Below, piece after piece: positions 5,055 to 35,511 of a stretch of DNA of 64,000 nucleotides. The position numbers were made by a program, and so were the translations under genes. The DNA comes from Reyranella sp. (lineage in GTDB: Bacteria; Pseudomonadota; Alphaproteobacteria; Reyranellales; Reyranellaceae), in assembly GCA_019750135.1 (NCBI GenBank), contig JAIEOV010000008.1, forward strand, positions 1-64,000, read 5' to 3'. A model generated the notes under the pieces. It had not been told where the DNA came from, did no database searches, and was given only the letters and a program-made list of their open reading frames with translations. Positions within the stretch are counted from its first letter, which is position 1. Each line of letters begins with the position of its first letter.

Positions 5055-5620
5055 CCAAAGGCGAATTCCTCAACACCTTGCGCCAGCGCCTGGCCGGCAT
5101 GCCGCCGGACGAGGCCGACGACATCATCGTCGACTACGCCGCCCACTTCGCCGACGGCCGCGCGGCCGGCCGCAGCGAAGAAGAAATCGCCAAGGCGTTG
5201 GGCGATCCGGTGCGGCTCGCGCGCGAACTGCGCGCCGAGGCGGGCCTGCGCCGCTGGGAGGAAGAGCGCTCGCCCTCGAGCTTCTTCGCGGTGCTGTTCG
5301 CCTTCCTGGCGTTGATCGCGGTCGACTTCGTGTTCCTGCTGCCGCTGATCGGCGGGCTTCTGCTCGCCGCCTTCGTCATTGCGATCGTGCTGATCGCACT
5401 CTGCATCGCAGGCATCGTGCTGCTCGCCAAGGTGCTGAGCTGGGAAGGCCTGTTCGCGCTGAAGTCGATCACGCGCGGGCTCTACGGCTTCGGCCTGCTC
5501 GGCATCGGCATCGGCGGCGGTGCGCTGCTCCTGATGGCGCTGGACTACGCGGTGCGCCTGCTCGGCCGCTTCGCGCGCCTGCACTACACGCTCCTGAACA
5601 AGGCCGAGCAGTCGGCCTGA
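5051..5620 (+). CDS. DUF1700 (HAAS-type) membrane protein
   Basis: 189 residues. The first 75 form the helical DUF1700/HAAS domain (MTKGEFLNTLRQRLAGMPPD, then EIAKALGDPVRLARELRAE), followed by two to three hydrophobic segments near residues 80-125 and 145-170. This domain habitually sits beside PadR regulators and is thought to sense or relay a signal at the membrane (family association). The start overlaps the padR stop (ATGA). The DUF2807 gene follows after 16 bases, completing a three-gene operon. Its biochemical role is unknown. Confidence 0.85.
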   Translation: MTKGEFLNTLRQRLAGMPPDEADDIIVDYAAHFADGRAAGRSEEEIAKALGDPVRLARELRAEAGLRRWEEERSPSSFFAVLFAFLALIAVDFVFLLPLIGGLLLAAFVIAIVLIALCIAGIVLLAKVLSWEGLFALKSITRGLYGFGLLGIGIGGGALLLMALDYAVRLLGRFARLHYTLLNKAEQSA

Positions 5621-5636
5621 GCCAACGGAGGATCAC

Positions 5637-6338
5637 ATGATCAGGAACCTCGGCTTGATCGCGGTCGGCGGTCTCGGCATCGGCATCGCCTCGCTCTCGC
5701 TCGCCTATGCGATCGGCGGCCATGACATCGATACGTTCGGCTTCGCCGAGAGATGGGCATCGAGCTGCGGCGACAGCACCGGCTCGCGCGAGCGCCGGCT
5801 CGCCTGGGACGGCGGCGACAGTGTCGAGCTGTCGCTGCCCGGCACCGTGCGCTTGCGCGCCGGCGAGGGCAACGAGATCGTCGTGCGCGGTGCGCCTGGC
5901 CCGGTCGACCATGTGCGCGTGCACGGCAGCCGGCTCGTGCTTGCCTGCCGCGGCCGCAGCGGCCCCATCGAGATCACCCTGCCTGGCCGTGCCTTCCAGC
6001 GCATCGCCATCGCCGGCTCGGGCAATCTCGTGATGGAGAGTGTGAGCCAGCCCGAGGTGACGTTGCGCATCAGCGGCAGCGGCTCGATGCGCGCGCAGGG
6101 CACCGTCGATCGCCTGACCGTGAAGGTTTCCGGCTCGGGCGATGCCCGGCTCGGCGAGCTTTTGGCCAAGCAGGCCACCATACACATCTCCGGCAGCGGC
6201 AAGGTCGAGGCCTCGCCCAAGGACCAGGCCGACATCAGTATCTCCGGCTCCGGCGACGTGACGCTGCTGACCCGCCCTGCTGACCTGCGCAGCAAGGTCT
6301 CGGGCTCGGGGCGCATCAGCCAAGCCGCGGAGAAGTGA
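5637..6338 (+). CDS. DUF2807 (head GIN domain) secreted beta-helix-like protein
   Basis: 233 residues after a good ribosome site (GGAGGA). The N-terminus is hydrophobic and can act as a signal or anchor (AVGGLGIGIASLSLAYA). The rest carries repeated ISGSGS/VSGSGD motifs (GSGNLVME, ISGSGSMRA, VSGSGDARL, ISGSGKVE, ISGSGDVTL, VSGSGRI), the hallmark of the DUF2807 GIN-domain solenoid. It is the last gene of the PadR-DUF1700 operon, and PadR/HAAS/GIN trios recur in bacteria. Envelope location is likely. The function is not established. Confidence 0.85.
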   Translation: MIRNLGLIAVGGLGIGIASLSLAYAIGGHDIDTFGFAERWASSCGDSTGSRERRLAWDGGDSVELSLPGTVRLRAGEGNEIVVRGAPGPVDHVRVHGSRLVLACRGRSGPIEITLPGRAFQRIAIAGSGNLVMESVSQPEVTLRISGSGSMRAQGTVDRLTVKVSGSGDARLGELLAKQATIHISGSGKVEASPKDQADISISGSGDVTLLTRPADLRSKVSGSGRISQAAEK

Positions 6339-6339
6339 A

Positions 6340-7314
6340 TTGCGTCGTCTCATCTGCAGCCTCCTTCTGGTCGCCATCGGCGCATCGACTGCGCTGGCCG
6401 ATCCGCCATCGTTCCGGGCCGGCATCACCCGGATTGCCGTCCAGGGCGTCACGCCGTTCGAGGCCTTGATCGCCTATCCGACGGAAGCGGCCGAAGCCTC
6501 CATCGAAGACGGCCCGTTCAAGCTCCAGGCAAACCGCGACGCCCCGATCGCCGCCGGCGCTCGCTTTCCCATTGTCCTGTTCTCACACGGCGGCGGCCAA
6601 AGGCCGGGGACGCCATTGGCTCAGGCCGGTCTTCTGCTCCATTTGGCGCGGCAGGGCTTCATCGTCGTGGCGCCGTTCCATCCCGCCACCGACAAGCCTT
6701 TCATCGACCGGCCTCGACAGATGCGCAAGGCGCTCGATTCCCTGCTGGCGGATCCGCGTTTTTCCCAACCCGCCGACCCCGATCGTATCGCCATGGCAGG
6801 CTTCTCGTTCGGCGGGGCGGTGACACTCCTCTCCGCGGGAGCGAACGTCGATCTGGCGCACCTGTCGGCCTATTGCCACGATCATCCCGACGATACGAGA
6901 GCCTGCGACGGCATCGCCACCGATGGCTCCTGGGCCAAGGTACCGCCGAGCCCGAAATCGGACGCCGTGCTTCCCCTGAAGGCGCTCGTCCTCCTGGAAC
7001 CCTATGGCGCGCCGTTCGCGCAAAAGAGCCTTACCTCGATCGATCTGCCGGCATTGATCTACTCCACGTCACAAACCGATCTCCGGCCCGAGGGCAACGC
7101 CCTGGCGGTCGCCAAAGCGCTGCCGAAGCCGCCACAGCAAGTCGTCGTGCCCGGCAGCCACTTCGTGTTCGTCGACGTCTGCTCGCCGGACCTGGCAGCG
7201 CAGGTTCCGGAGGTCTGCAACGACCCGCCCGGCACCGACCGCGCCGCCATCCAGCAGCGCGTGAAGCGGGAGATTACGGATTTCCTTCGCGGACGCCTCA
7301 GCGCCGTTCCCTGA
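6340..7314 (+). CDS. secreted alpha/beta hydrolase, dienelactone-hydrolase-like (paralogue)
   Basis: 324 residues from a TTG start at 6340, one base after the DUF2807 stop; no ATG gives the signal peptide (LLLVAIGASTALA). Catalytic features are VLFSHGGGQRPG, the nucleophile GFSFGGAV near residue 155 and PGSHFVFVD near the end. It resembles the hydrolase at 3630-4604, so the PadR operon is bracketed by two related exported hydrolases. The 3' end overlaps the tadA 3' end by 17 bases (tail to tail). The substrate is unknown. Confidence 0.8.
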   Translation: MRRLICSLLLVAIGASTALADPPSFRAGITRIAVQGVTPFEALIAYPTEAAEASIEDGPFKLQANRDAPIAAGARFPIVLFSHGGGQRPGTPLAQAGLLLHLARQGFIVVAPFHPATDKPFIDRPRQMRKALDSLLADPRFSQPADPDRIAMAGFSFGGAVTLLSAGANVDLAHLSAYCHDHPDDTRACDGIATDGSWAKVPPSPKSDAVLPLKALVLLEPYGAPFAQKSLTSIDLPALIYSTSQTDLRPEGNALAVAKALPKPPQQVVVPGSHFVFVDVCSPDLAAQVPEVCNDPPGTDRAAIQQRVKREITDFLRGRLSAVP

Positions 7315-7729
7315 AGAAAGCGCGCAGCAGTTCGCCTGATTCACCTTCGCTGAGTCCGGGATAGAGCTCGGGCTTATGATGGCAGGTCGGCTGGTCGAAG
7401 ATGCGCGGACCGTGCTCGATGCCGCCGCCCTTGGGATCGGCGGCGCCCCAGTACAGCCGGCGGATGCGGGCGAAGGAAATCGCCTGGGCGCACATCGGGC
7501 AGGGCTCCAGCGTAACGTAGAGATCGCAATCGACCAGCCGCGGCGCACCGAGCGCGGCCGCGGCGGCGCGGATCGCCAGCATCTCGGCATGGGCCGTGGG
7601 ATCGCGGTCCTGTTCGGTGCGATTGCCGGCGGCCGCGAGCACCGCGCCGTCGGGCCCCACGATCACGGCGCCGATCGGCACCTCGCCCCGCTCTGCGGCT
7701 GCCCGCGCCTCGCGGAGCGCGCGCTCCAT
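7298..7729 (-). CDS. tadA: tRNA adenosine(34) deaminase TadA
   Basis: 143 residues from ATG 7729; an in-frame ATG at 7756 would add nine residues and cannot be excluded. TadA deaminates A34 to inosine in tRNA-Arg(ACG). The zinc and catalytic motifs are complete: TAHAEMLAIR (His and the proton-shuttling Glu) and PCPMCAQAI (two Cys). VPIGAVIVGPDG and LYWGAADPKGGG are also typical. It is single-copy here and divergent from the acyl-CoA dehydrogenase operon, with about 70 bases between starts. Confidence 0.92.
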   Translation of the reverse strand: MERALREARAAAERGEVPIGAVIVGPDGAVLAAAGNRTEQDRDPTAHAEMLAIRAAAAALGAPRLVDCDLYVTLEPCPMCAQAISFARIRRLYWGAADPKGGGIEHGPRIFDQPTCHHKPELYPGLSEGESGELLRAFFRERR

Positions 7730-7799
7730 GGGTGACGCTCTTGTCGTTCCGGTCATAAGGGGGAAAATAGCGCCAACATCGGGTCGGGAGGAGTATGTC

Positions 7800-8927
7800 A
7801 TGCGCTTCAGCTTCACGCCGGAGCAGGAGGAGTTCCGCACCAGCCTCAGGCGCGCTCTCGAGGCGCGCTCGCCGACCAAGGAAGTGCGCCGCCTGATGGC
7901 GACCGACCAGGGCTTCGAGCGCGACGGCTGGCAGAAGCTGAACCAGGAGCTGGGCCTCACCGCCATCCATATCCCCGAGGCCTACGGCGGCGCCGGCTTC
8001 GGCCAGGCCGATCTCGCCATCGTGCTCGAGGAGATGGGCCGCGGGCTGCTCTGCGCGCCCTTCCTGTCGACGGCACTGGCCGCCAACGCCATCCTGAATG
8101 CCGGCACGGAGGAGCAGAAGGCGGCGCTGCTGCCCGCGATCGCCGCGGGCGAGAAGACCGCCACGCTTGCGATCTCCGAGGACGACGGGCGCAACGACGC
8201 CGAAGGTGTGGCTTCGACGGCGACGCAGTCGGGCGCGGCCTGGCGGCTGGAGGGCAGCAAGAGCTTCGTGCTCGACGGTCATACTGCCGACCTCATCGTC
8301 GTCGTAGCCCGTCGGCCGGGCTCGCAGGGTGAGGACGGGCTGTCGTTCTTCATCGTCGAGGGCAACTCGCCGGGCCTGGAGCGCAAGCGGCTCAAGACCA
8401 TGGACGAGACGCGCAAGCTCGCGCGGCTCACCTTCAACTCGGTCGAGGCCAAGCTTTTAGGCGAACCGGGCGCAGGCGGCGCACCGTTCGCCAAGACCAT
8501 GCAACAGGCCGCCGTCCTGCTCGCCAACGAAATGGTGGGCGGCGCCGAGCGGCTGCGCGAGGATGCGCTGGCCTATACCCAGATGCGCATGCAGTTCGGC
8601 CGCTCGATCGCCTCATTCCAGACGACCAAGAACAAGGCGGCCGACATGCTGGTCGATGTCGAGCTCGCGAAGTCGGCGGCCTACTACGCTGCCGCCGCGC
8701 TCGACGAGGGCGATGACGAACTGCCGGCTCTCGCCTCGCTCGCCAAGGCCTGCGCCTCCGAGGCCTATCTGCAGACGGCCATCCATGCCGTGCAGATGCA
8801 TGGCGGCATCGGCTTCACCTGGGACAACGACACCCATCTCTGGTTCAAGCGGGCCAAGAGCTCCGAGATCCTGTTCGGCGATGCCAACCAGCATCGCGAA
8901 CTCATGATGCAGCACTGGAAGCACTGA
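7800..8927 (+). CDS. acyl-CoA dehydrogenase family protein (first of a pair)
   Basis: 375 residues. The ATG at 7800 follows GGGAGGAG (7786-7793). N-terminal FTPEQEEFRTSLRRALEAR, LGLTAIHIPEAYGGAGFG and ATLAISEDDG fit the acyl-CoA dehydrogenase fold, and QMHGGIGFTWDNDTHLWFKR is the FAD-binding C-terminal helix region. The end of the protein (KSSEILFGDANQHRE) replaces the usual GGTDEIQR block with its nearby glutamate, as in the non-classical partner of heterodimeric enzymes. It lies ten bases from the second dehydrogenase, so a two-subunit flavoenzyme oxidising a bulky acyl-CoA is a reasonable inference. Confidence 0.85.
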   Translation: MRFSFTPEQEEFRTSLRRALEARSPTKEVRRLMATDQGFERDGWQKLNQELGLTAIHIPEAYGGAGFGQADLAIVLEEMGRGLLCAPFLSTALAANAILNAGTEEQKAALLPAIAAGEKTATLAISEDDGRNDAEGVASTATQSGAAWRLEGSKSFVLDGHTADLIVVVARRPGSQGEDGLSFFIVEGNSPGLERKRLKTMDETRKLARLTFNSVEAKLLGEPGAGGAPFAKTMQQAAVLLANEMVGGAERLREDALAYTQMRMQFGRSIASFQTTKNKAADMLVDVELAKSAAYYAAAALDEGDDELPALASLAKACASEAYLQTAIHAVQMHGGIGFTWDNDTHLWFKRAKSSEILFGDANQHRELMMQHWKH

Positions 8928-8937
8928 GGGCCCGATC

Positions 8938-10215
8938 ATGAGCGACGCAACCATGAGCGAACCGACCGAAAGCGCCGTGCGCGCCGAAGTGCGGGCCTGG
9001 CTGGAAGCCAACTGGAACCCCGAGTACGGCCTGGTCGAATGGCGCACCAAGCTGATCGAATCGGGCTGGGGCGCGCCGCACTATCCCAAGCAATGGCACG
9101 GCCGCGGCCTGCCCGTGCGCTTCAACGCCATCGTCGACGAGGAATTCGCGCGCATCGGCGCGGTCGGCGTCGCCAAGGCCGGCATCCGGACGCTGGCCGC
9201 CGCGACCATCCTCGATCACGGCACCGACTTCCATAAGGAGAAGTTCCTGCGGCGCATCCTCACGGGCGAGGACACCTGGTGCCAGCTGTTCAGCGAGCCA
9301 GGCAGCGGCTCGGACATGGCGGGCGCGGTGACGCGCGCCGACCGCCGCGGCAACCAGTGGGTGATCAACGGCCAGAAGGTGTGGACCACCAGCGCGCACA
9401 AGGCGCACTGGGGCCTGCTGCTGGCTCGCGCCAACTGGGACGTCGCCAAGCACAAGGGGCTGGCCTACTTCATCCTCGACATGAAGCAGCCCGGCGTGCA
9501 GGTCCATCCGCTGAAGCAGATGAACGGCCACGCCTCGTTCAACCAGGTGTTCTTCACCGACGCCATCGTCGAGCCCGAGATGATGGTGTGCGACGTGGGC
9601 GACGGCTGGACGGTCGCCACTACCACCCTGATGCACGAGCGTCGCGGCGCCGACGGCCTGCGCAGCTGGGCGCAGGCCTCCGACCGCAAAGGCCGCATCT
9701 ACGAGGAGGAGAAGGCCGAGATCGCCTCCACCATGGAGCCCTACAAGTGGTATCCGCAGCGCGCCGGCCGCGTCGACCTGGTGATGGAGCGGGCGAAGGC
9801 CACGGGCAAGATCAAGGATCCTGTCATTCGCCAGGAAATCGCCAAGCTCCTGATCATGTCCAAGGCCGCCGAATGGACGGCGCGCCGCGCGCGGGCGGCG
9901 CAGGCCCAGGGCAAGCCGCAGGGGCCTGAGGGCTCGCTCGGCAAGCTGGTGTCGAGCAACGTCGCGCGCCAAGCGGCACGGGTGCACACCTACATCACCG
10001 GGGCCGACGCGCTGCTGACCGGCGAGGACAGTCCGATGGGCGGCGTCATCGCCGAGATCCTGGTCTCCGTCCCTGCCACCTCGATCGCGGGCGGCACCGA
10101 CGAGATCCAGCGCAACATCATCTCCGAGCGCGTCCTCAAGATGCCCAAGGAGCCCAGCGTCGACACCAACAAGCCGTTCAAGGACGTGCCACGCAACATC
10201 ACGGCGAAGTCGTAA
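8938..10215 (+). CDS. acyl-CoA dehydrogenase family protein (second of a pair)
   Basis: 425 residues; the start is ATG 8938, with ATG 8953 as an alternative. Typical segments are GWGAPHYPKQWHGRG, WCQLFSEPGSGSDMAG (FAD and substrate site), QWVINGQKVWTTSAHKA and GGTDEIQRNIISERVLK. This longer form matches the FadE-type partner found next to shorter dehydrogenases like its upstream neighbour. The likely role is alpha,beta-dehydrogenation of an acyl-CoA in the cytoplasm. The specific substrate, possibly a branched or ring-derived acid, cannot be read here. Confidence 0.87.
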   Translation: MSDATMSEPTESAVRAEVRAWLEANWNPEYGLVEWRTKLIESGWGAPHYPKQWHGRGLPVRFNAIVDEEFARIGAVGVAKAGIRTLAAATILDHGTDFHKEKFLRRILTGEDTWCQLFSEPGSGSDMAGAVTRADRRGNQWVINGQKVWTTSAHKAHWGLLLARANWDVAKHKGLAYFILDMKQPGVQVHPLKQMNGHASFNQVFFTDAIVEPEMMVCDVGDGWTVATTTLMHERRGADGLRSWAQASDRKGRIYEEEKAEIASTMEPYKWYPQRAGRVDLVMERAKATGKIKDPVIRQEIAKLLIMSKAAEWTARRARAAQAQGKPQGPEGSLGKLVSSNVARQAARVHTYITGADALLTGEDSPMGGVIAEILVSVPATSIAGGTDEIQRNIISERVLKMPKEPSVDTNKPFKDVPRNITAKS

Positions 10216-26255: not shown

Positions 26256-26693
26256 TCAGGGGAGCCTGTCGAACCACTCCTGGGCAAGCGCGCCGCGGCG
26301 GCGGCGCACCTGTCCCTGCGGATCGTCGGGCCGCTCATAGAGCCTGCAAATGACCCTGCCGGCCTCATCCGCCGTCGTCGTGCCGCGCAGCGCGCGACCA
26401 GCGAGTTGCTCGGCATTCGACAATTCGAAGACGACGAAAGCCAACTGGGCGACGTAGTCGGCATCCTTGATGCTGTAGCCGAATTGCCTTTGGAATCCGG
26501 CCTGCCGGTCGGGATGCCATTGGCAAATACCGAAGGCCTGCCCACCATCGCCCACGGCTTGGTGATCGAAGGCACTCTCGGCCTCGATGTTGGCGATCAG
26601 ACCTGCCGATTGCTCCCTGGTCCACTTCTCCTTCACGAAGAAGTCGTGCGCCTGGAGCGCCAGGTCGAGCTTGGTCGAAGTATCGTTGCTCAT
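26256..26693 (-). CDS. phage-tail-type lysozyme domain protein
   Basis: 145 residues from ATG 26693, preceded by AGAGGAG at good spacing. AGLIANIEAESAFDHQAVG and GQAFGICQWHPDR are the signature of the phage tail lysozyme family (Phage_lysozyme2), the Glu in AES being the likely catalytic acid. There is no signal peptide. It is the last gene of a four-gene minus operon (28924 to 26256). Peptidoglycan cleavage is the expected activity; whether it serves release, secretion or attack is unknown. No other phage structural gene is nearby. Confidence 0.78.
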   Translation of the reverse strand: MSNDTSTKLDLALQAHDFFVKEKWTREQSAGLIANIEAESAFDHQAVGDGGQAFGICQWHPDRQAGFQRQFGYSIKDADYVAQLAFVVFELSNAEQLAGRALRGTTTADEAGRVICRLYERPDDPQGQVRRRRGALAQEWFDRLP

Positions 26694-26732
26694 TGGATTG
26701 CTCCTCTCTGTCAACTTCGCGTCATCGACGGT

Positions 26733-27629
26733 TCAAGCGGCGGCGGACTTGTTCGCAGTCTTTTCACTCGGACTCGGTCCCGCACCCTTGAGACGAACCA
26801 GGTTCTGCAAAGCGTCGAACCAGAACGGCGCGCCGAACAACGTGGCGAGCGCGGTGATCAGCCAGCCAATCAGTGCCAGTCCGTCGTTTGTGTATGCGCG
26901 GAGGATGACGAACGTCGTTGCCGTCGAGGGTGTTTCCTTCAAGGTCCAGCCGACGGGAAAGGTCGTCAGGAGCTGCTTGGCAGCATCCTCGGCATTCTGG
27001 GTCGCCTTCACGTTGGCCGTGATGCCCGGATTCGCCCACAACGTCCGCGCCACGTGGATCGCGTCGACGTTCAGCGCCACGCACAGAACCAGGGCGACGA
27101 TGAAGCCGATCAGCTGGGTCCAGCGCTTGTATGCCCCGCCGACCCGATCCATGCCGACGTCGAACCAGTCGGCGACTTCCTTCTTCACGGCGTCCATCTG
27201 GCCAACGCCACGCTGAATTGCGCCGCTCAGCAGGCTGTTGACCTGCTCGTTTGCCTTCAGCGGGATATTGGCATTGACGGTCGCAAGCAGAGCAGGCATC
27301 GACGTTTTCGCCGTCAGCGGCCCCGTCAAGCCTGCGATGTCCAGCAACGCCGCCGCGAAGCGCTGCGAGTCGATGTAGGCAGGCTTGTTTTTGTCGGGCT
27401 GCGTGCTGCCGGGCCCACGCGGATTGACCAGGCCATGCCCATAGAGCGTCCGAGCAAGGCCGCTGAATGTCGGATCGTTGACGAGATCCTTGACGCCCGC
27501 GAGCAGGGTTCGCGAACGCCACTTGGTCATCGAGGCGATAGCCTCGACGACCGTGCTGGTCAGAAGGCTGATCGCGAGGAAGGTGAAAACCAGCCCCACG
27601 ACCATATCCAGAACAACGCTGTTCAGCAT
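26733..27629 (-). CDS. conserved membrane protein of unknown function
   Basis: 298 residues. The N-terminal membrane helix (MVVGLVFTFLAISLLTSTVV) is followed by a cytoplasmic part with LYGHGLVNPR and PAYIDSQRFAAALLDI. A central GMDRVGGAYKRWTQ leads into a second helix ending CVALNVDAIHVARTLW, then FPVGW and a last helix with LFGAPFWFDALQNLVRL. I recognise this order as that of a widespread uncharacterised family of three-helix membrane proteins, but no function is known to me. It lies between the lysozyme gene (39 bases) and the helical 140-residue gene (29 bases). Confidence 0.75.
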   Translation of the reverse strand: MLNSVVLDMVVGLVFTFLAISLLTSTVVEAIASMTKWRSRTLLAGVKDLVNDPTFSGLARTLYGHGLVNPRGPGSTQPDKNKPAYIDSQRFAAALLDIAGLTGPLTAKTSMPALLATVNANIPLKANEQVNSLLSGAIQRGVGQMDAVKKEVADWFDVGMDRVGGAYKRWTQLIGFIVALVLCVALNVDAIHVARTLWANPGITANVKATQNAEDAAKQLLTTFPVGWTLKETPSTATTFVILRAYTNDGLALIGWLITALATLFGAPFWFDALQNLVRLKGAGPSPSEKTANKSAAA

Positions 27630-27658
27630 GACTGTTCTCCCCCGAGGTCAATACGGGC

Positions 27659-28081
27659 TCACGCCGTCGCAGCGTCGATGGCGCTGGAGAGGCTATTCAC
27701 CAGCGCGACGACTGCGCCGGCGGCGGCAAGCGGATTGCCGGTCGAGATCGCCGCTGCCGCAGACAGCACGCTGCCGACGATGCTGAGGACGAGCTTCACG
27801 TTCTGAATCTGCTTGAGCGTCTGCTGCGCTCGATCGACCTGCGCCTTGAGGTCGGCAATCGCCTGCAGGACACCGGGCTTCGAGAGATCCGCGGCGATTC
27901 CCGCGATCGTCGCGGCATCCGTCGCGATGCTCGTGCTGAGCGTCCCGAGCTGGATCATCTCCTGTGTGTACGGATCAGGCGCTTCCTGGACGATCTTGTC
28001 GAGCGCGTCCGAGAAGTCGGAGAGCGCGTTGGAAAGGTCCATCAGAGCGTCGGGCGTGGTGATAATTGTGGTATCGGACAT
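27659..28081 (-). CDS. small helical protein with hydrophobic C-terminus, unknown
   Basis: 140 residues, almost entirely helix-forming. Residues 1-85 are amphipathic (LMDLSNALSDFSDALDKIV, then ADLKAQVDRAQQTLKQIQ, a likely coiled coil). Residues 95-135 are strongly hydrophobic (LVLSIVGSVLSAAAAIS, AAGAVVALVNSL), like a membrane-inserting hairpin. There is no cysteine and no signal peptide. It sits second in the four-gene operon, nine bases after the lipoprotein gene. The architecture resembles helical pore-forming proteins, but that is only a shape comparison. Confidence 0.7.
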   Translation of the reverse strand: MSDTTIITTPDALMDLSNALSDFSDALDKIVQEAPDPYTQEMIQLGTLSTSIATDAATIAGIAADLSKPGVLQAIADLKAQVDRAQQTLKQIQNVKLVLSIVGSVLSAAAAISTGNPLAAAGAVVALVNSLSSAIDAATA

Positions 28082-28090
28082 GACTTTCTC

Positions 28091-28924
28091 CTAGGGCTTC
28101 TGGAATGACTTGATGGCGTCGAGCAGGACGGGCACGTCCTTGAGCAGCGCGTCGCGCACAGCCGCGTCCTTCAGCCGGTCGCGGTTCTCGTAGGGGATCT
28201 CCTGGTCCTCGCCGATCTTCTTGAAGGCCGCCTGCGCCGCCCTGGCTTGCGCGATCGGGGCGGCGAACGTCGCTTCGTCGATCAGCTGTGCCCGGAACAA
28301 GAGCGCTCGCGTCCCGACGTCGCCAGTGGAGGCGATGGCGACACGCCAATACTCCTTTGCCACGCTTTCAGCCGCGATATTGGCCTTGACGACGTTCGGC
28401 GCTGCCACTGTCGCCAGGTAGTGGGCGAGCTGCTTGACGTCGTCATGGCCATTGGTGATCAGGTCGACGATCGCGCGCTTCCTGACGGCGTCCAGGACCA
28501 CACCCACCACCTTGAAGGCGACGCCGGCAATCGCCGTGCCCGTCGGATCCGCGCCGACCTTGCCGAGGCCGGCGGTGATGTCCGCCGCCTGCTGGCTCAC
28601 GTCGGCGACCTTGTCGTCGGCCAGTTGGCCAAGCGTCTTGAGGTAGAGCGTGAGCGCCTGGGCGGCCAGGATCGCGGTCTCCGAGCGTCCGACGGCGTAG
28701 GCGTCTTCCTTCTGAATCTTCTCATGCAGCCCGGGCGCAACGCTGCGCACGTGAGGCGCCGCCGAGAGCGAGAGCGCGGTGTCATAGGCCGTCGGCCATT
28801 GCCGGAAGATCGTTGAATTCTCGGTGACTGTGCTCGCTGTCTTCGCGTAGTCGCGCACCGCACTGAGATCCGTACACGCACTCGTTGCGAGCAAGATCAG
28901 CAGGACTGGTCGTGCATAGGCCAT
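28091..28924 (-). CDS. putative lipoprotein, first gene of the lysozyme operon
   Basis: 277 residues. The N-terminus LLILLATSACTDLSAVRDYA has a lipobox-like TSAC (Cys near residue 17). The remainder is mostly helical, with an alanine-rich hydrophobic stretch (GTAIAGVAFKVVGVVLDAV) mid-way and the terminal segment VRDALLKDVPVLLDAIKSF. No known domain was recognised. It is the promoter-proximal gene of the operon running to 26256 and is divergent from the peroxidase gene; the 184-base gap holds two pairs of SARP-type direct repeats. Confidence 0.7.
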   Translation of the reverse strand: MAYARPVLLILLATSACTDLSAVRDYAKTASTVTENSTIFRQWPTAYDTALSLSAAPHVRSVAPGLHEKIQKEDAYAVGRSETAILAAQALTLYLKTLGQLADDKVADVSQQAADITAGLGKVGADPTGTAIAGVAFKVVGVVLDAVRKRAIVDLITNGHDDVKQLAHYLATVAAPNVVKANIAAESVAKEYWRVAIASTGDVGTRALLFRAQLIDEATFAAPIAQARAAQAAFKKIGEDQEIPYENRDRLKDAAVRDALLKDVPVLLDAIKSFQKP

Positions 28925-28978
28925 TTCTATCTCCCCCTCGATGCCGGTTGTGCCACAGTGGCCATCATCTACCGGCAG

Positions 28979-28995
28979 CGTGAGCGGATCGTGAG
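28979..28995 (+). promoter_or_regulatory. SARP-type direct repeat pair facing the peroxidase operon
   Basis: CGTGAG at 28979-28984 and again at 28990-28995, an exact 11-bp period, oriented toward the peroxidase gene 114 bases downstream. The same hexamer, period and orientation-to-gene occur in the ycaO promoter. No convincing -10 lies 8 bp downstream here, unlike at ycaO. Confidence 0.6.
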
Positions 28996-29056
28996 TCGCG
29001 GCGACACCAACCTTTTTTGTGCAGAGCGCGATTCTTCGATTGCCGCCGTCATGCGA

Positions 29057-29073
29057 CTCACGATGGACTCACG
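29057..29073 (-). promoter_or_regulatory. SARP-type direct repeat pair facing the lipoprotein-lysozyme operon
   Basis: CTCACG on the plus strand at 29057-29062 and 29068-29073 (CGTGAG on the minus strand), again an exact 11-bp period; the match extends to CTCACGAT in both copies. It is oriented toward the minus operon starting at 28924, 133 bases away. Confidence 0.6.
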
Positions 29074-29108
29074 ATCACGCGGGCAACCTGCTCGCATTGG
29101 GGGATCAC

Positions 29109-30836
29109 ATGAGTCACAGCGGAAGTTCGCATGTCGGCATCGAGCCGAAGGGCCTGACCAGCTGCCCGCACGGATTCGACCCGGCAGCCTTCTCCGGCTT
29201 CAGCTACCTCCTGGGCCCGCCAGCGGCCGCCCAGCGAAGCAAGCTCGGCAACGATCCCGCGGCTGCACACCAACTGCTCGCGGCGCTTTCAAAGGCGCTG
29301 CCGGGCGCCGGGAATTACTGGCCGGCGGCGCTCGACGGCGGCCTCACGCACGACGACAACCCCGGCATCCCATCGGGCTATACGTACCTGCTGCAGCTCG
29401 TCGCCCACGACCTGGTACAGACCACCGTTCCATTCTGGGCGGCCGCCCAGCTCGGTCTCGGCAGCCGCAACATGCGATCGTCGCCGCTACTGCTCGACAC
29501 GCTGTACGGCGGCGGGCCCAACACGGCGCCGACGGCCTATCGCATGATGGGCTACACCACCGCCGACCGCACTCACCTGCGCATTGGCCGGTTCCGATCC
29601 GCCACGACCGGCATGATGGCCCAGTCGGAAGAGTGTCCCTTCCGCGACCTCGCCCGCATCAATCTCGATGCCATGGACTATCTCCGGGGGTCCGACGACC
29701 TCAAGGCATGCGACAGTCTCGAGCACTGCCGGAACCTCGACACCGCCAAGCACGTCCAGCCTGCCAATTTCGACGATCCCTTCGTGACCTGCGTCGCCGA
29801 CCCGCGAAGCGACGACAATCTCGTGCTGGCGCAGCTCGTCGTCCTGTTCGCCAGAGCGCACGAAGCCATCGTGGCCCAACTGACCGGCGCCCGCCCCGAA
29901 GCCATGTTCGGATTTGCGCAGCTCGCCATGCAGCGCCTCTACCACGCCATCATCGAGCACGATCTGCTGCCGCGCCTGCTGCATCCCGACATCCTGGCAT
30001 CGCTGCGCGATCGTTCGGCGAACGACGAATGCTGGCTGTGGCGGACCGAGGGGGCGCCGCTCGAGTTCACGCACGGCGTGTTCCGCATCGGCCATGCCAT
30101 GGTCCGTAGCGACTATCGCTTGAACGCCGCCAACGCGCTGGACATCGGCCGGGTGCTGAAGGGTGATGGCAGCTGGGCCGACCTGCACTATCCGCTGCGC
30201 GAGAGCTGGCTCATCGAGTGGGCGCAATTCTTCGACTTGCCCGGCGGCGTCACACCCAACTTCGCCCGGCGCTTCAGCCCCACCCAGTCGGCGCTCGACG
30301 TGGCAGGACTGTTTCAGTCCAACGATCCGGAACAGCCGGCGAGCCTGTCGCTGCGCGATATGCTCAGCGCCGCCCTCGCCCGTACCTGGAGCGTCGATGC
30401 CCTGATCGACCGGATGCTGGCCCACACGGTCAACCCGCTGCCGCCGGGCTGGGCCTGGTGCAACGCTGGCAAACGTCGAGCGGCGATCGGCGACTGGCTC
30501 TCGACCCGTTGCAAGGCCGGTGAGCTCGACGATGCCAAAATCGAGGTACTCGCCGTCGACCCACCCCTGCCGCTCTTCGTGCTGCTGGAAGCGGCCCTCG
30601 ACGACAAGATCGCAGGCCGACATCTCGGCCCACTCGGCTCGGTCATTGTCGGCGAAGTGATCGGCCGCAGCATCGCCCGGCAACGACAGCAGCTGGCGGC
30701 CGCCGAGTGCGCCGCTTGGGCCGCGTTCGATCCCGAATTCTGGAGTGAAATCGAAGCGATCAAGGCGATGCCCGACCTGATCGCGTTCGTCCAGCGTCAG
30801 GCTGGCTGCGAGACGCCGCCGACAGCGGGCACCTGA
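29109..30836 (+). CDS. animal-type haem peroxidase family protein
   Basis: 575 residues from ATG 29109 with GGGGGA before it. The distal-histidine block LLQLVAHDLVQTTVPFW (about residue 96) and the proximal-histidine helix LVVLFARAHEAIVAQL (about residue 247) fit the peroxidase-cyclooxygenase (animal haem peroxidase) superfamily. RLYHAIIEHDLLPRLL and FRIGHAMVRSDY are further family features. No signal peptide is visible, so it is cytoplasmic or exported by another route. Relatives oxidise halides, phenols or protein tyrosines with peroxide; the substrate here is unknown. It is followed after 35 bases by a gene of unknown function, and the promoter region carries CGTGAG repeats. Confidence 0.82.
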   Translation: MSHSGSSHVGIEPKGLTSCPHGFDPAAFSGFSYLLGPPAAAQRSKLGNDPAAAHQLLAALSKALPGAGNYWPAALDGGLTHDDNPGIPSGYTYLLQLVAHDLVQTTVPFWAAAQLGLGSRNMRSSPLLLDTLYGGGPNTAPTAYRMMGYTTADRTHLRIGRFRSATTGMMAQSEECPFRDLARINLDAMDYLRGSDDLKACDSLEHCRNLDTAKHVQPANFDDPFVTCVADPRSDDNLVLAQLVVLFARAHEAIVAQLTGARPEAMFGFAQLAMQRLYHAIIEHDLLPRLLHPDILASLRDRSANDECWLWRTEGAPLEFTHGVFRIGHAMVRSDYRLNAANALDIGRVLKGDGSWADLHYPLRESWLIEWAQFFDLPGGVTPNFARRFSPTQSALDVAGLFQSNDPEQPASLSLRDMLSAALARTWSVDALIDRMLAHTVNPLPPGWAWCNAGKRRAAIGDWLSTRCKAGELDDAKIEVLAVDPPLPLFVLLEAALDDKIAGRHLGPLGSVIVGEVIGRSIARQRQQLAAAECAAWAAFDPEFWSEIEAIKAMPDLIAFVQRQAGCETPPTAGT

Positions 30837-30871: not shown

Positions 30872-31429
30872 ATGCCGACAATGATCCAGGATCCCGACAG
30901 CCTCACCTGGGGCCGACTGGTCAAGAGCTGGGCCACTGGCCTGGACTATCTCAACACCCCGCCGGGCCAGCAGCCGCCGCCCGCCGGCGCTTCGGCGGCC
31001 GGCAAGCCGTGGGCACTGCCGCCGCTCGCTCCCGCCAGCTTCAACGCGACGGTCGGCGGCAACGTGGTTCAGAAGACGATTCCGGGCGTGCTCTACCTCA
31101 CGAAGGACGATTGCAATACGCTGCTCGGCGCCGCCGGAATCCCGGCCGAGCGCGTCACCTACCCGCCGGAGACCACAGAGGTGATCATCGTGCAGGGCGA
31201 CGCCAAGACGATGGTGATCAGACTGCCGCCAACCAAGGTGCTGCAAACGTCGGAAGCGAACCTGCTCGGCGGCGGCGCCTATCCGACACCGGCCTTCTAC
31301 GAGCCGCTGTTCAGCCCTCCGGGCGGCCCGGTCAAGCATGCCAATCCGCCCCAGCTGCCGAACAAGGCCGGCATCATGGATCTGCACGCCAATCGCATCG
31401 GCGACTACACGATGGGCCTGTGCGCCTAG
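30872..31429 (+). CDS. unknown protein, downstream partner of the peroxidase
   Basis: 185 residues with a strong ribosome site (AAGAGGAGAG). No family was recognised. The N-terminal third is Pro/Ala-rich (GQQPPPAGASAAGKP), then VPGVLYLT-like strands, TTEVIIVQGDAKTMVIRLPP and the end GIMDLHANRIGDYTMGLC. One cysteine is near residue 115 and one is the penultimate residue. It is co-transcribed with the haem peroxidase, so it could be a substrate, partner or binding protein. Confidence 0.7.
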   Translation: MPTMIQDPDSLTWGRLVKSWATGLDYLNTPPGQQPPPAGASAAGKPWALPPLAPASFNATVGGNVVQKTIPGVLYLTKDDCNTLLGAAGIPAERVTYPPETTEVIIVQGDAKTMVIRLPPTKVLQTSEANLLGGGAYPTPAFYEPLFSPPGGPVKHANPPQLPNKAGIMDLHANRIGDYTMGLCA

Positions 31430-31502: not shown

Positions 31503-33650
31503 TCACCAACCGTGGTGGGTCATCCCGCCATCGGGAATACCGGCCGCGATCACACCCGCGTGCAGGCGCTGCCAGGCTGCGCGATCGCCCATCGGATAGA
31601 TGTGCAACAGCCACCGGCCGATCATCCCATCGGTCGGCGACGACGGTCCGAACCAGTTGGCGCGTGTCAGCGCGAGGAAGCGCTCCGCTTCCTCGCGCGC
31701 TTCCCGAGGCCGCCCGAGGTTGCACAAGGCCGCTCCCCGCCAGGCAAACAGGTTGGACAGCGCCTGCGTGCGCCACGGATAGGGTTCGGGGGTGAGGGCG
31801 TGCGCATGCGCCGAAGCGTCGAGCAGGCCTTCGTCGTCGCCACAGAGATAGCGCGTGGTCGCGAGATAGGTCCAGTGGGCAAGGCTGGGCGACAGGGTGA
31901 GTTCCATGGCTTCGTCCGACAGCGCCTCGGCGCGGCGAAAATTGCCGATGAAGGCATGAAACATGCCTGCGGCGATCAAGGTCCAGGCGTCATAAGGGTT
32001 GAGCTCGCAGGCGATCTCCATGTGCGTCTCGGCCTGGGCGTAGCGCTTGCTCATCGCCAGGGCCCAGCCGAGGCTGAGCTCGGCCCGTGAATCGCGCGGA
32101 TCGAGGCGAACCGCCTGCTGCGCCAAGGCCAGCGTGCGGTCCTCCTTGTGCCGGGCGCGGAACACGCCGGGATGGGCGATGTGGAAAGTGTTGTTCATCT
32201 GCACGAGGCTGCTGTAGAGCGGCGACGCCGTGGGCGCACGCTCGATCGCCCGCGCCAGCATTTCCGCTGCGTCGTTCCAGTTCTCCGGCGTAAAACGCAT
32301 TATCAGCAGTTGTGTGCGCAGCCATACGTCGTGGGCCTCGAACGACCCTTCCGCAGCGGACCCCAGGCGCATCAGGCGCTCGGTCGAAAGCTCGACGTTG
32401 AGAGTGGAGGCGAGCCGGCGGACGACGCGCTGCTGCGTCGCCGCCCAATTGTCGAGCGAGACCTCGAACCGCTCGCTCCACACGACGACGCCGGCGGTCT
32501 GATCCTGCAGCACCATGACCGCGCTGATCGTCGATCCGGCCTGATAGGTCGTCGTCGTGACGCGATAGCGCGTCGAGACTGGCACGGCGACGTTGGCGTT
32601 GGTGGCGCTGCGATCGCTGTCGGTCACGTACCATTCGCGAAACCGCACCAGGCAGGCCATCAGTTCGAGCCGGAAGCCCTCGACCAGATGCACGCGGTCC
32701 GGCTCCACGCCGTGGATGTCGAACGGCGCGATGATGAGCGCCGGCTTTGCGGCAGGCGGCAGGGCAGACTGGACGGCAGCCGGCACCGGCCGTGGCGCCA
32801 TGATCTGCGCCACCTCGTCGCGAAGTGGCCGCGCGGCGGTTTCGCGCGCCGGCAAGGCGTCGAACTTGCCTTGCTTGATCTCGGCCACCAGCTCCTGCGT
32901 GGCGGCGGAAGGCTCCATGTCGTACTCGTCGCCGAGCAGCCGATACAGCTCGTCATACGCGCGCAGCGCGGCGCCGATCTCGGCATCTTCCGCGGCACAT
33001 TGCATGACCGTCCGGCAGGCTTCCTCATGCGTCGGATCGAGCAGCAGGACCACCTCGGCCAGCTGCCGCCGCCGCCGGCGCGGCAGGTCGAGATCGCGAT
33101 AGCCCCGTTCGAGGTCGCGAACCATGCGGTCGTGCAAGGTCTGGCGTCGCGCGCTGAGCCAGCCGTGAAAGGCGGGATCGAGGTCCTCGAAGCCCGCCAG
33201 CAAACCATCGGCGCCCTGCCGCTGCCGCACCAGCAGATCGGGCGTTTCGCCGGCCGCGACGGCGCGCAGCACCAGATCCACGTCGACAGCGAACGAGCCG
33301 GGGCGCAAACCGATCGCGGCGCGCGTGCCGACCAGCGCGTCGCATCCCGCCGCAAGCATCGCCTCGCGTGCCTCATGCACGACCTGCCGCAACGTCGCCC
33401 GCGCGTTCGCCTCGCTCGATTCGCTCCAGAACAACCCCGCAAGCCGCTCGCGCCGCTCCTCGCTCCTTTCACTCAGCGCCAGATATCCGATCATCGCCAG
33501 CGCCTTGCGGTTACGCAGGGCGATTTCGCGGCCACTGAACGTGAGGGCGGCACCACCGATCAATGAAACGGTCAGCTGCGGCGCCGCGCCTTCGACCTTG
33601 CGGCCACCAGCCGTACTGGCGGACAGTCCGAGAGTATCGCTCATCGTCAT
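31503..33650 (-). CDS. SARP-type regulator: winged helix, BTAD domain and TPR region
   Basis: 715 residues from ATG 33650; alternatives are ATG 33644 or GTG 33680. An OmpR-like DNA-binding domain comes first (LTVSLIGGAALTFSGREIAL, RKALAMIGYLALS, RERLAGLFW). The BTAD helical-repeat domain follows to about residue 260 (VVLLLDPTHEEACRTVMQ, DELYRLLGDEYDMEPS). A TolB/FlgO-like segment (LIIAPFDIHGVEPDRVHLVE) and a TPR-like C-terminal half with LDPRDSRAELSLGWALAMS complete it. SARPs activate biosynthetic and stress genes by binding direct repeats with an 11-bp period, and such repeats lie in its own operon promoter and in the divergent promoter region. It is 13 bases after ycaO. Confidence 0.85.
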   Translation of the reverse strand: MTMSDTLGLSASTAGGRKVEGAAPQLTVSLIGGAALTFSGREIALRNRKALAMIGYLALSERSEERRERLAGLFWSESSEANARATLRQVVHEAREAMLAAGCDALVGTRAAIGLRPGSFAVDVDLVLRAVAAGETPDLLVRQRQGADGLLAGFEDLDPAFHGWLSARRQTLHDRMVRDLERGYRDLDLPRRRRRQLAEVVLLLDPTHEEACRTVMQCAAEDAEIGAALRAYDELYRLLGDEYDMEPSAATQELVAEIKQGKFDALPARETAARPLRDEVAQIMAPRPVPAAVQSALPPAAKPALIIAPFDIHGVEPDRVHLVEGFRLELMACLVRFREWYVTDSDRSATNANVAVPVSTRYRVTTTTYQAGSTISAVMVLQDQTAGVVVWSERFEVSLDNWAATQQRVVRRLASTLNVELSTERLMRLGSAAEGSFEAHDVWLRTQLLIMRFTPENWNDAAEMLARAIERAPTASPLYSSLVQMNNTFHIAHPGVFRARHKEDRTLALAQQAVRLDPRDSRAELSLGWALAMSKRYAQAETHMEIACELNPYDAWTLIAAGMFHAFIGNFRRAEALSDEAMELTLSPSLAHWTYLATTRYLCGDDEGLLDASAHAHALTPEPYPWRTQALSNLFAWRGAALCNLGRPREAREEAERFLALTRANWFGPSSPTDGMIGRWLLHIYPMGDRAAWQRLHAGVIAAGIPDGGMTHHGW

Positions 33651-33663
33651 GACGCCGACGCCC

Positions 33664-34947
33664 TCACAGCGGTGCCGCACTGGTCGGATCGAAGCCTGAG
33701 TCCGACGCGGCCACTTGGAGGCGCGGGCCCGGCGGCGACGTCATGGCGATCTCGAGCCCCGGGCAAAGGACACGCACCGCGGGAACGCCGATCTCCGAGC
33801 GGGTGAGGTTGAGGACACAGGGCGACAAACCCACGCTCTCGAGTCCCTGGCGGATCATCCTGAGGGTAACCAGGCCCTCCGCCTCCGGCAGATCCTGAAG
33901 TCGGCGGGGCGGCGCGACCGGATGCAGTGCGCGTGTCGTCTTCACGTCGATGCTCCTGAAACGCTCGATATGGCGCCGATCGAGCTCACTCAGGCAGGCC
34001 TCCCCCTGTGTCTGCCGCTTCACCTCCGAGAGATGATGGGCAAGTTCCATCTGCGCCATTTCGCGCACGGCCGCCTCGGCCGCCTTCGCCTGCGTCGGGC
34101 GAGCCGCAAAACCACAGCACAAGCCGAACCCGTCGTCATTGCACGAAGCGGCGACGACAACGGGCACGCCGACGTCGCTCGTGACGTCCAGCAACCAGGC
34201 ACGCCTGTGCGTCGGCCCGCCGCGCAGATGCTCGAGCATGGCGTTGCCCGAGGCATTGGAGATCACATGCGCGGGACGGCCGCCACGCCACCAGAGCGCC
34301 ACGGCATCGCGCTCCACGAGCTCCAGAAGGCCGTGCAGGGCGGCGTCGAGCGGCCCCAAGCCTGCACCCGTTCCAGTGCTCAGTGGCCAGGGCGGGTCGA
34401 GGTCGCGGAGATCGGGCGGCCGGCGGAAGCACAGATCCACGGGAACACGGACCGGTTCACCGCTGGCAAGATCTGCTGCATTCACCCAGGCCGTCGGAGT
34501 ATGGCGAGCGCGGCGTCGATACCCCGCGAGCCTCGTCCAGAGCTCGTGCAAGGCGGGCGAAGCGCCGGCAAGGGCATCGTCTTCCGGCAACAAGGCGACG
34601 GGATCGTCCGCCGACATGAACTGCGATGCGTATTCGACCCCTTCGCCGACGCACGATTCGAACGCTTCCCGGAAACTCAGCCCGGTCCCCGCCACGTCTC
34701 CGACCGGACCGGGACCCAATCCGAATGCCTGCGGGTCGACTTGCGCGCCGAGCACGACGAGGTTTGGCGCATCCGGCGCCCGCAGCCCGAAAATTCGTAG
34801 GAAGCGGGCGGCCACGAGCAGAAGCGCCGAACGATGCGGAATCAGTTCTGGCGGACCTCCGAGATACTCCAGCCGCCCCAGGAAAGCCTGGGCCTCTTCG
34901 TCGACGACAGTTCTGCAGGCAAGCATGGCCGCGGCGGTTTCAAACAC
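33664..34947 (-). CDS. YcaO-family protein (peptide-backbone-modifying enzyme candidate)
   Basis: 427 residues from GTG 34947, supported by GGAGGAGAGGA eight bases upstream. ATP-binding YcaO motifs are GEGVEYAS (101-108; Arg of the usual GEAIER is Tyr), GTGAGLGPLDAALHGLLELVERDA's core ELVERDA (209-215) and REMAQME (295-301). YcaO enzymes phosphorylate peptide amide oxygens to install azolines, thioamides or amidines, usually with a partner protein. The C-terminus here ends FDPTSAAPL with no PxPxP tail as found in azoline-forming enzymes, and no E1-like or TfuA partner was seen nearby. The chemistry is therefore open. Confidence 0.8.
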   Translation of the reverse strand: MFETAAAMLACRTVVDEEAQAFLGRLEYLGGPPELIPHRSALLLVAARFLRIFGLRAPDAPNLVVLGAQVDPQAFGLGPGPVGDVAGTGLSFREAFESCVGEGVEYASQFMSADDPVALLPEDDALAGASPALHELWTRLAGYRRRARHTPTAWVNAADLASGEPVRVPVDLCFRRPPDLRDLDPPWPLSTGTGAGLGPLDAALHGLLELVERDAVALWWRGGRPAHVISNASGNAMLEHLRGGPTHRRAWLLDVTSDVGVPVVVAASCNDDGFGLCCGFAARPTQAKAAEAAVREMAQMELAHHLSEVKRQTQGEACLSELDRRHIERFRSIDVKTTRALHPVAPPRRLQDLPEAEGLVTLRMIRQGLESVGLSPCVLNLTRSEIGVPAVRVLCPGLEIAMTSPPGPRLQVAASDSGFDPTSAAPL

Positions 34948-34996: not shown

Positions 34997-35031
34997 CCAT
35001 AAGCACTCTACTCACGGTAGCCTCACGGTAG
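34997..35031 (-). promoter_or_regulatory. ycaO-SARP operon promoter with 11-bp direct repeats
   Basis: On the minus strand CTACCGTGAG occurs twice (35031-35022 and 35020-35011), period 11 bp. Exactly 8 bp later is TTATGG (35002-34997), a plausible -10. Direct repeats ending 8 bp before the -10 are the known geometry of SARP activators. The start of transcription would fall near 34990, leaving about 43 bases of leader with the ribosome site before GTG 34947. Autoregulation by the downstream SARP gene is inferred. Confidence 0.65.
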
Positions 35032-35177
35032 ACCAGCGTCAATGCGGCGATGGTTCTGCAAGATAACGGCCGCCCGCCACTTGGCTTCGTGATCGCCCTC
35101 CGCGCGGAAGTGGCCGACCAAGCCGGCAGCGCCCGCAGCGAGTGGCTGATCGCATCGAGATGGGGCGACGGCGGCAC

Positions 35178-35315
35178 CTATCTCTCAATTGCCAGGACGC
35201 TGGTGCCAGTGAGAACAACGGTGGCGGCGCCGCCATACCTGGTACCGCGGTGGTCGGCCCTTGCCTTGCTGGACGCGAGGTCAGCCCATTCGAACTCGCC
35301 GATCTTCAGTTTCAT
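35178..35315 (-). CDS. possible 45-residue peptide upstream of ycaO
   Basis: A short open frame from ATG 35315 to TAG 35178 with mostly G/C third positions, as in real genes here. It begins MKLKIGEFEWADLASS (charged) and ends GGAATVVLTGTSVLAIER (Thr/Ser-containing and hydrophobic after a Gly-Gly). The leader-then-core look and its place on the same strand upstream of ycaO make it a candidate modified-peptide precursor. Against this, there is no clear ribosome site, it lies before the mapped SARP promoter, and no family is known. It may be chance. Confidence 0.25.
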   Translation of the reverse strand: MKLKIGEFEWADLASSKARADHRGTRYGGAATVVLTGTSVLAIER

Positions 35316-35511
35316 ACCGGAGCGTCCGCTGCAGCTGCCGCTCGCCGGACGGTTCTGCCCCTCACTTGGCAGTGCCCAGATGGAATGCCGCGACGAGTCA
35401 ATACGGCTGCACGGCGACCTGAACTGCATGCCCCGGAGATCCGGGCGGGCCTATCGCTTCGACGGGACACGCGTCATATGGGTTGGAGAATTCATACAAA
35501 GCCGCTGATGC

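Follow-up and report, generated by a model that had tools for sequence, protein, structure and literature searches.

Gene content of the locus and its repeat pairs

The window, by which we mean the entire stretch of 64,000 nucleotides analysed here (Reyranella sp., contig JAIEOV010000008.1, positions 1 to 64,000), carries between 26.2 and 35.5 kb a left-hand operon, a peroxidase-small protein operon, a ycaO-BTAD operon convergent with the latter and, transcribed divergently from ycaO, a gene for a 152-aa protein. The same genome has a related cluster on contig C131. The features of the locus are the following (columns are counted behind the repeat pair, in the direction in which it is read).

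26256..28924, minus strand: left-hand operon for a 277-aa putative lipoprotein (by eye), a 140-aa protein, a 298-aa protein and a phage-lysozyme-like protein
28964..28969, minus strand: predicted -10 hexamer of the lipoprotein operon, GATGAT, separated by 9 bp from the last TCACG; CAAACT stands at the same place in C131
28979..28995, minus strand: repeat pair P1, exact, read CTCACGATCCGCTCACG toward the lipoprotein-lysozyme operon
29057..29073, plus strand: repeat pair P2, exact, read CTCACGATGGACTCACG toward the peroxidase gene
29084..29089, plus strand: predicted -10 hexamer of the peroxidase promoter, CAACCT, separated by 10 bp from the last TCACG and by 8 bp from the heptamer TCACGAT
29109..30836, plus strand: animal-haem-peroxidase-like protein, first gene of the right-hand operon (PF03098, 23.1 bits, just below the 25-bit cut-off)
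30872..31429, plus strand: small partner protein, encoded behind the peroxidase in the same operon (17-relative alignment)
31503..33680, minus strand: BTAD protein, candidate regulator (Pfam BTAD and TPR_17; the start may be 33650)
33664..34947, minus strand: YcaO protein, directly 5' of the BTAD gene (Pfam YcaO, 174.6 bits)
35011..35027, plus strand: repeat pair P3, exact, read CTCACGGTAGCCTCACG toward the divergent gene 35050-35508
35038..35043, plus strand: predicted -10 hexamer GTCAAT of gene 35050-35508 (T at column 16 present, A at column 12 absent)
35050..35508, plus strand: conserved cluster gene, 152 aa, EWLIASRWGDGGTYLSIA family, divergent from ycaO (tblastn relatives)

The repeats had first been described, in a sequence-only reading, as CGTGAG pairs with an 11-bp period, and the window search recovered them on both strands where they had been placed: CGTGAG begins at 28979 and 28990 on the plus strand, the minus-strand copies occupy 29057-29062 and 29068-29073, and a third CGTGAGN5CGTGAG pair lies at 35011-35027 on the minus strand. 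Two bases 5' of CGTGAG stands an A in all six window copies, so that the repeat unit, in the other reading, is TCACGNT. P2 ends 35 bp before the peroxidase ATG (29109) and P1 54 bp before the ATG of the lipoprotein operon (28924), whereas 63 bp separate P3 from the ycaO start (GTG 34947).

Exact CGTGAGN5CGTGAG pairs number three in the 64 kb, against a mean of 0.02 in dinucleotide shuffles, and three were never reached in 100 shuffles, which bears out the earlier statement that chance is an unlikely source. The pair is not widespread either: the whole genome (8.46 Mb in 160 contigs, 96% complete) holds four, three of them in the window, and no match to the reversed control pattern. When up to two mismatches are allowed, the window contains six matches, below the 13.4 expected by chance; the excess thus vanishes and the notable signal is confined to the exact pairs. 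This shortfall is what speaks for repeats that are fortuitous or functionless, a reading to which we assign a negligible probability in view of the count of exact pairs, of their conservation across genera and of the BTAD control described below.

The C131 cluster is 79% identical to that of the window in the BTAD protein, 62% in the small protein and 58% in the peroxidase, and retains all three pairs, each one mismatch away from CGTGAG. On its left side stands a class III cyclase-like gene (by eye) in place of the lipoprotein gene; a far pair like P1 is nevertheless present there, as it is in some other clusters. Aligning the sequences 5' of the two peroxidase genes brings out the repeat region and CAACCT, which is identical in both, as conspicuous matching blocks. 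Around 9700-9920 of C131 (locus L033, genome G000), ycaO is left only as fragments, with BTAD, peroxidase, small protein and the three operators kept.

The BTAD protein and the small partner protein

The BTAD protein matches PF03704 with 34.5 bits (cut-off 22.1) and displays at its N-terminus a winged helix of the OmpR type and, behind it, a BTA domain, the arrangement that defines activators of the SARP type. A profile built from 21 relatives found EmbR as its best PDB match (1.1e-13) and also matched AfsR structures (7.1e-13 to 4.6e-12; 8hvr at positions 5-239, E 7.1e-13). With the AlphaFold model (pLDDT 87.7), AfsR provided the top Foldseek hits (2.1e-7, TM 0.50); the model superimposes on the AfsR SARP domain with a Z of 16.3 (229 residues, 4.6 A) and on EmbR with 15.2 over 227 residues, and unrelated TPR rows reach 10.9. 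These profile and model comparisons support the prediction that the BTAD protein carries a SARP domain. The C-terminal half contains a TPR_17 match (29.5 bits, cut-off 24.4) and weaker TPR matches (residues 515-571 of 725); scanning Pfam with E up to 0.001 gave no match to NB-ARC. Large SARPs carry additional modulatory domains in this part, among them NOD/NB-ARC and TPR.

By our own residue mapping, the phosphate-touching R87 and R94 of AfsR align with conserved arginines of the BTAD relatives, and other residues occupy the positions of the base-reading T88 and R92. The latter difference is what would be expected if the BTAD protein, whose DNA recognition we infer, reads another sequence.

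In the alignment of 17 relatives of the small protein (30872-31429), which are otherwise down to 23% identical, an arginine, a tyrosine and the penultimate cysteine are invariant near the C-terminus (RIGDYxxxxCx). The nearby YcaO and the invariance of the cysteine make this residue a candidate modification site. The protein might be a YcaO substrate of the nitrile-hydratase-leader type, to which it bears some resemblance; it had no Pfam or NCBIfam match at E up to 1, and a significant PDB fold match was not found.

Distribution of the repeat pairs among other genomes

Clear matches to YcaO, BTAD and peroxidase together were confined, among 146 related genomes (our own included), to our own genome and G071, the cluster of which is sequence-identical to that of Reyranella sp. 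CPCC 100927 (L064). When the peroxidase alignment was run against 84,980 species genomes, 72 loci were obtained. With L075 (upstream region too short) and L116 and L128 (without a tblastn match) left out, 69 remain, of which 22 have a BTAD match at E <1e-30; the other 47, some of them on short contigs, have none. Pairs were counted from 350 bp upstream of the extrapolated peroxidase start to 120 bp inside it.

An exact CGTGA/CGTGA pair with the 11-bp period is found in 14 of the 22 loci with BTAD nearby versus one of the 47 without (Fisher P 2.7e-8), and in 17 of 22 versus four of 47 when one mismatch is allowed (P 1.8e-8). These P values are optimistic because the seven Bradyrhizobium loci are related; upon their removal, the exact pair is present in seven of 15 loci with BTAD versus one of 47 without. 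At the sole exact pair in a locus assigned to the non-BTAD group (L071), the contig continues for only 44 bases past the match. It is thus the BTAD gene, rather than the peroxidase, that the motif tracks. The core pair precedes peroxidases only 26-36% identical to that of the window in Bradyrhizobium, Belnapia and other Alphaproteobacteria; in L064, the Reyranella peroxidase pair has two mismatches.

In 18 cluster genomes (about 112 Mb), the pattern TCACGNTNNNNTCACG has 83 matches versus 18 for its reversal. The 342 kb of cluster DNA account for 36 of the 83, against none for the reversed pattern, and one of these 36 falls inside the L063 BTAD gene; the other 47 lie outside cluster DNA. The earlier proposal that a single regulator serves the three transcription units gains support from the near-confinement of the exact motif to this cluster within its own genome and from its association with BTAD-bearing clusters in other genera, and this regulator is most probably the BTAD protein.

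The same data bear on the idea that the pairs are bound by another winged-helix regulator of the OmpR type, for instance a PhoB-like response regulator. PhoB-like response regulators also read 11-bp direct repeats located 5' of the -10 element, and PhoB-type pho boxes are 11-bp direct repeats that take the place of the -35 element; as the DNA-binding domains of SARPs are themselves of the OmpR type, architecture alone does not separate the two. The repeats differ from pho boxes in sequence, however, and are tied to one cluster and to BTAD. Many genomic sites, independent of BTAD, would be expected of a global regulator of the PhoB type, but the genome has four exact pairs, three of which the window contains; where BTAD is present the pair tends to be as well (14/22 versus 1/47); and no response regulator was found among the ten window proteins scanned. 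We accordingly regard such a regulator as improbable.

Direction of reading and position of the -10 hexamer

Comparison of 24 clusters, namely, that of the window, C131 and the 22 BTAD-bearing loci, indicated in which direction the pairs are read. The peroxidase-proximal pair reads TCACG toward the peroxidase in 19 of the 24, and in 20 of the 24, P2 included, when L111 is added (at most two mismatches). Both cores are exact in 16 of these 19 pairs, one (L070) has a single mismatch and two (L064, L065) have two; pairs with two mismatches are weak evidence alone, about 0.25 being expected by chance per 600 bp and strand. The L111 pair, with two mismatches, the same orientation and both A12 and T16 (the A and T of columns 12 and 16), was kept out of the column and spacer counts. 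The L068 pair lies about 450 bp upstream, and no TCACG-direction pair with at most two mismatches was found before the peroxidase in L074, L122, L123 and L125. The left neighbour of the peroxidase varies among the clusters (MarR-like, dapA-like, ABC transporter and others, by eye). In L059, L072 and L073 it stands in tandem with the peroxidase gene, and the pair still reads CGTGA away from the latter; consequently, the pair cannot serve the leftward neighbour in these loci.

When the 19 near pairs are read in the TCACG direction, identity reaches 65% at just two of the first 24 columns behind them, 12 (A in 13/19) and 16 (T in 17/19), which correspond to the second and sixth bases of a -10 hexamer at a distance of 10 bp. 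For T16, P is 4.9e-9 over all 19 pairs and 4.8e-6 over the 13 that remain with a single Bradyrhizobium. The ten pairs on the ycaO side show the same two columns (A12 in seven, T16 in eight) and no further conserved ones. The 11 far pairs alone yielded no conserved column in the TCACG direction and a C at column 4 in the opposite one. In the CGTGA direction, the sole conserved column of the near set is a T at column 1, and the ycaO-side set has five (2, 3, 7, 11 and 19); six of its ten rows are Bradyrhizobium, in which this stretch runs into the start of ycaO.

We then scanned spacers over 26 pairs, with one Bradyrhizobium (L059) standing for all and the far pairs of L061, L062, L072 and L074 dropped. 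In the TCACG direction, a hexamer of the form xAnnnT follows 12 of the 26 pairs at a spacer of 10 bp and six at 9 bp, with at most four at any other spacer. In the CGTGA direction, it follows at most three of the 26 at spacers of 5-14 bp, and the maximum anywhere is five (spacer 20). With the four far pairs restored, the count at spacer 10 is 12 of 30. The 10-bp spacing was first noticed in the near-peroxidase set; outside this set, it applies to five of 13 pairs versus a background of 4%. The far pairs of the window, C131 and L072 fit a -10-like hexamer at 9 bp, not 10, and those of L061, L062 and L074 had no matching hexamer.

It follows that each pair is most adequately read in the TCACG direction. 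The pairs had originally been regarded as oriented toward their genes; this holds as to the strand on which CGTGAG lies, but the comparative evidence places the functional direction opposite. The pair-to-gene assignment consequently turned out to be crosswise, a -10-like hexamer occurring at the preferred distance in the TCACG direction only, and the pair ascribed to ycaO has its -10-like hexamer toward the divergent gene 35050-35508 instead. The -10 spacing had seemed less clear in the gap because the pairs were read in the wrong direction.

The reading in the CGTGAG direction, with the same regulator acting from 28979 on the peroxidase, from 29057 on the lipoprotein operon and from 35011 on ycaO, matches the strand orientation as originally described, and a weak hexamer (TTATGG or TAGAGT) does follow the 35011 pair. 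It would, however, leave the 26 pairs without any preferred -10 spacer and the peroxidase pair oppositely oriented in 20 of the 24 clusters, including the three with a tandem left gene, and the two transcripts from the gap would face each other and overlap. Moreover, in six Bradyrhizobium loci the ycaO-side pair stands 7-16 bp from an in-frame ycaO ATG, which leaves no room for a -10 element toward ycaO. Taken together, these observations make the CGTGAG-direction assignment highly improbable.

Predicted regulon

With the sites assigned in this manner, the gap 28925-29108 most likely comprises two promoters of an unusual class that stand back to back, the nearer pair serving each of them. In the mechanism we propose, these would be promoters of the SARP type, each with two TCACGNT heptamers at an 11-bp period in the -35 region and a weak -10 hexamer (xAnnnT) 8 bp later (7 bp for P1). 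The two repeats would probably be occupied by two adjacent protomers of the BTAD protein (31503-33680), which would keep sigma region 4 and RNA polymerase in place at a promoter devoid of a usable -35 element, as AfsR does at afsS. P2 (29057-29073) is the predicted activator site of the peroxidase promoter and would drive the peroxidase and small-protein operon; P1 (28979-28995) is the predicted activator site of the lipoprotein-lysozyme operon; and P3 (35011-35027) would chiefly serve the divergent gene 35050-35508, not ycaO. The predicted start of the last transcript falls on the ATG of the gene itself, so that its mRNA would be leaderless or the start codon lies further in. Overall, we consider it probable that the locus represents a SARP-type activator regulon in Alphaproteobacteria, in which BTAD binding, activation and polymerase contact would occur as outlined.

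The counterparts of P3 and its predicted target suggest that the operators mark cluster genes. The 152-aa gene has relatives in C131 (55% identity), six Bradyrhizobium (31-36%) and Belnapia (33%) by tblastn, and the counterpart of P3 lies between the homologues of ycaO and of this gene in the six Bradyrhizobium and beside the homologue in C131. In Belnapia (L076), the relative is found on the other side of the cluster, in second position of the operon to the left of the peroxidase gene, and a -10-like CAGTCT follows the far pair (8889-8905) in its direction. Furthermore, a Bradyrhizobium gene of 108-118 aa (15772-16207 in L058 and the corresponding position of five further Bradyrhizobium loci) has a pair of its own in six loci, reading TCACGCTGAAATCACG in four, with close variants in L057 and L063; A12 and T16 accompany five of the six, the exception being L057. 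This gene is likely an extra member of the regulon.

The action of the BTAD protein at P3 could also be partly repressive, whereby binding at 35011-35027 would block the ycaO-BTAD promoter in a negative feedback and activate the divergent gene. The six Bradyrhizobium loci, with the pair 7-16 bp 5' of an in-frame ATG of ycaO, fit such an arrangement, since use of this ATG requires that the ycaO transcript start at or 5' of the pair, and the L063 pair is followed by a Shine-Dalgarno-like AGGAG. Against it, the window pair lies 63 bp from the ycaO start, that is, the geometry is not conserved, and in L069 an exact ycaO-side pair points to ycaO, with A12 and T16, about 240 bp 5' of the furthest ATG, an arrangement that suggests activation of ycaO. 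Because the spacing between pair and ycaO varies in this way, autoregulation of ycaO-BTAD through P3 is kept as a rival only, and we deem it rather unlikely; it is compatible with the SARP-activator reading and does not exclude it.

Comparison with known regulatory systems

The targets of SARPs are described as direct repeats 11 or 22 bp apart, the 3' repeat being 8 bp from the -10 element (PMC10936776), and their sites as heptamers with 4-bp spacers (PMC7040171). The window pairs share the 11-bp period, and the 8-bp distance is obtained with the heptamer TCACGNT (12 of 26 pairs, with six more at 7 bp), a register that we chose guided by the conserved T, with a -10 element inferred from conservation. 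The closest parallel is AfsR, which belongs to the SARP family of Streptomyces antibiotic regulators, at the afsS promoter of Streptomyces coelicolor, with which the system described here has in common a SARP domain, two 11-bp direct repeats, C-terminal TPR matches and a 3' repeat 8 bp from a poor -10 element: that of afsS is suboptimal, CACTGT (PMC10936776), and those of the peroxidase promoters read CAACCT, CACTGT, CAGTCT and others. A SARP-like working of the window promoters is well supported. By contrast, the host is an alphaproteobacterium, the repeat is TCACGNT versus CGTT(T/C)ATCGNN (PMC10972967), the residues that confer base specificity differ and the BTAD protein is without the Pfam NB-ARC match. 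EmbR of Mycobacterium tuberculosis, the best PDB profile match, has an FHA domain, unlike the BTAD protein, in which the C-terminal half has weak TPR matches; this half also resembles CadC and HilA weakly, far below their cut-offs.

According to one review, SARPs are 'exclusively found in actinobacteria' (PMC10972967), and in another paper proteobacterial hits to SARP profiles were judged probably atypical (PMC7040171). The clusters described here, by contrast, occur in the Reyranella family, Bradyrhizobium, Belnapia and other Alphaproteobacteria; the actinobacterial restriction is a statement of range, not of mechanism. A broader interpretation, which we put forward tentatively and hold to be somewhat doubtful, is that a lineage of alphaproteobacterial BTAD regulators has a true SARP-type sigma adaptation with its own TCACGNT code, dedicated to an undescribed protein-modification system that would consist of a haem-peroxidase-like enzyme, YcaO and a small protein with the conserved RIGDYxxxxC tail. 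The operator would travel with target genes as these switch cluster sides and would recruit lineage-specific genes, in the present case the lipoprotein-lysozyme operon.

Neither the cluster nor the operator was found in the titles and abstract openings returned by searches of the open-licence PMC literature. In passages of a paper on Acetobacteraceae, a YcaO cluster is mentioned only for Roseomonas mucosa, along with a Dyp-type peroxidase, which is not the peroxidase/YcaO/BTAD system (PMC8776678). A conserved, predictable operator with its promoter geometry offers a handle on BTAD regulators outside Actinobacteria, and the uncharacterised peroxidase/YcaO cluster gains a regulon outline together with a search rule, namely, two TCACGNT, 8 bp and xAnnnT.

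Further matches and observations

The fourth exact pair of the genome (C147:95838, L001) lies about 150 bp behind a luciferase-type monooxygenase-like gene (gene type by eye), and no xAnnnT hexamer was found 10 bp behind it in the TCACG direction; this pair is probably due to chance. Another genome-wide match, C123:23488 (L129), apparently falls within a plus-strand reading frame; it likewise lacks an xAnnnT hexamer at a 10-bp distance on its TCACG-direction side and looks like a chance occurrence.

In the Bradyrhizobium loci L130 and L131, around 1943-1959, a conserved TCACGGTATTGTCACG stands between clpP-like and clpX-like genes (by eye). No -10-like hexamer was seen at the expected distance in these two loci, and the site is not claimed as a target.

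Distances between the two inverted pairs of 78 (window), 57 (C131) and 57 (Reyranella) suggested a helical phasing two turns apart, an idea that was dropped in view of the corresponding distances in other clusters (57, 74, 74, 24, 100, 42 and 48).

In G042 (L134), a TCACG pair was not found near the BTAD homologue (41% identity). At 5182-9903, this locus encodes a fusion of cyclase-like, winged-helix and BTAD parts, toward which the genes for a small-protein relative and for a CxxCH-containing protein are convergently oriented. Finally, a peroxidase contig from Saprospiraceae (L112) carries at 5351-6391 a 26% identical relative of the 298-aa protein of the window, a co-location that perhaps reflects an old link between the peroxidase and this protein.
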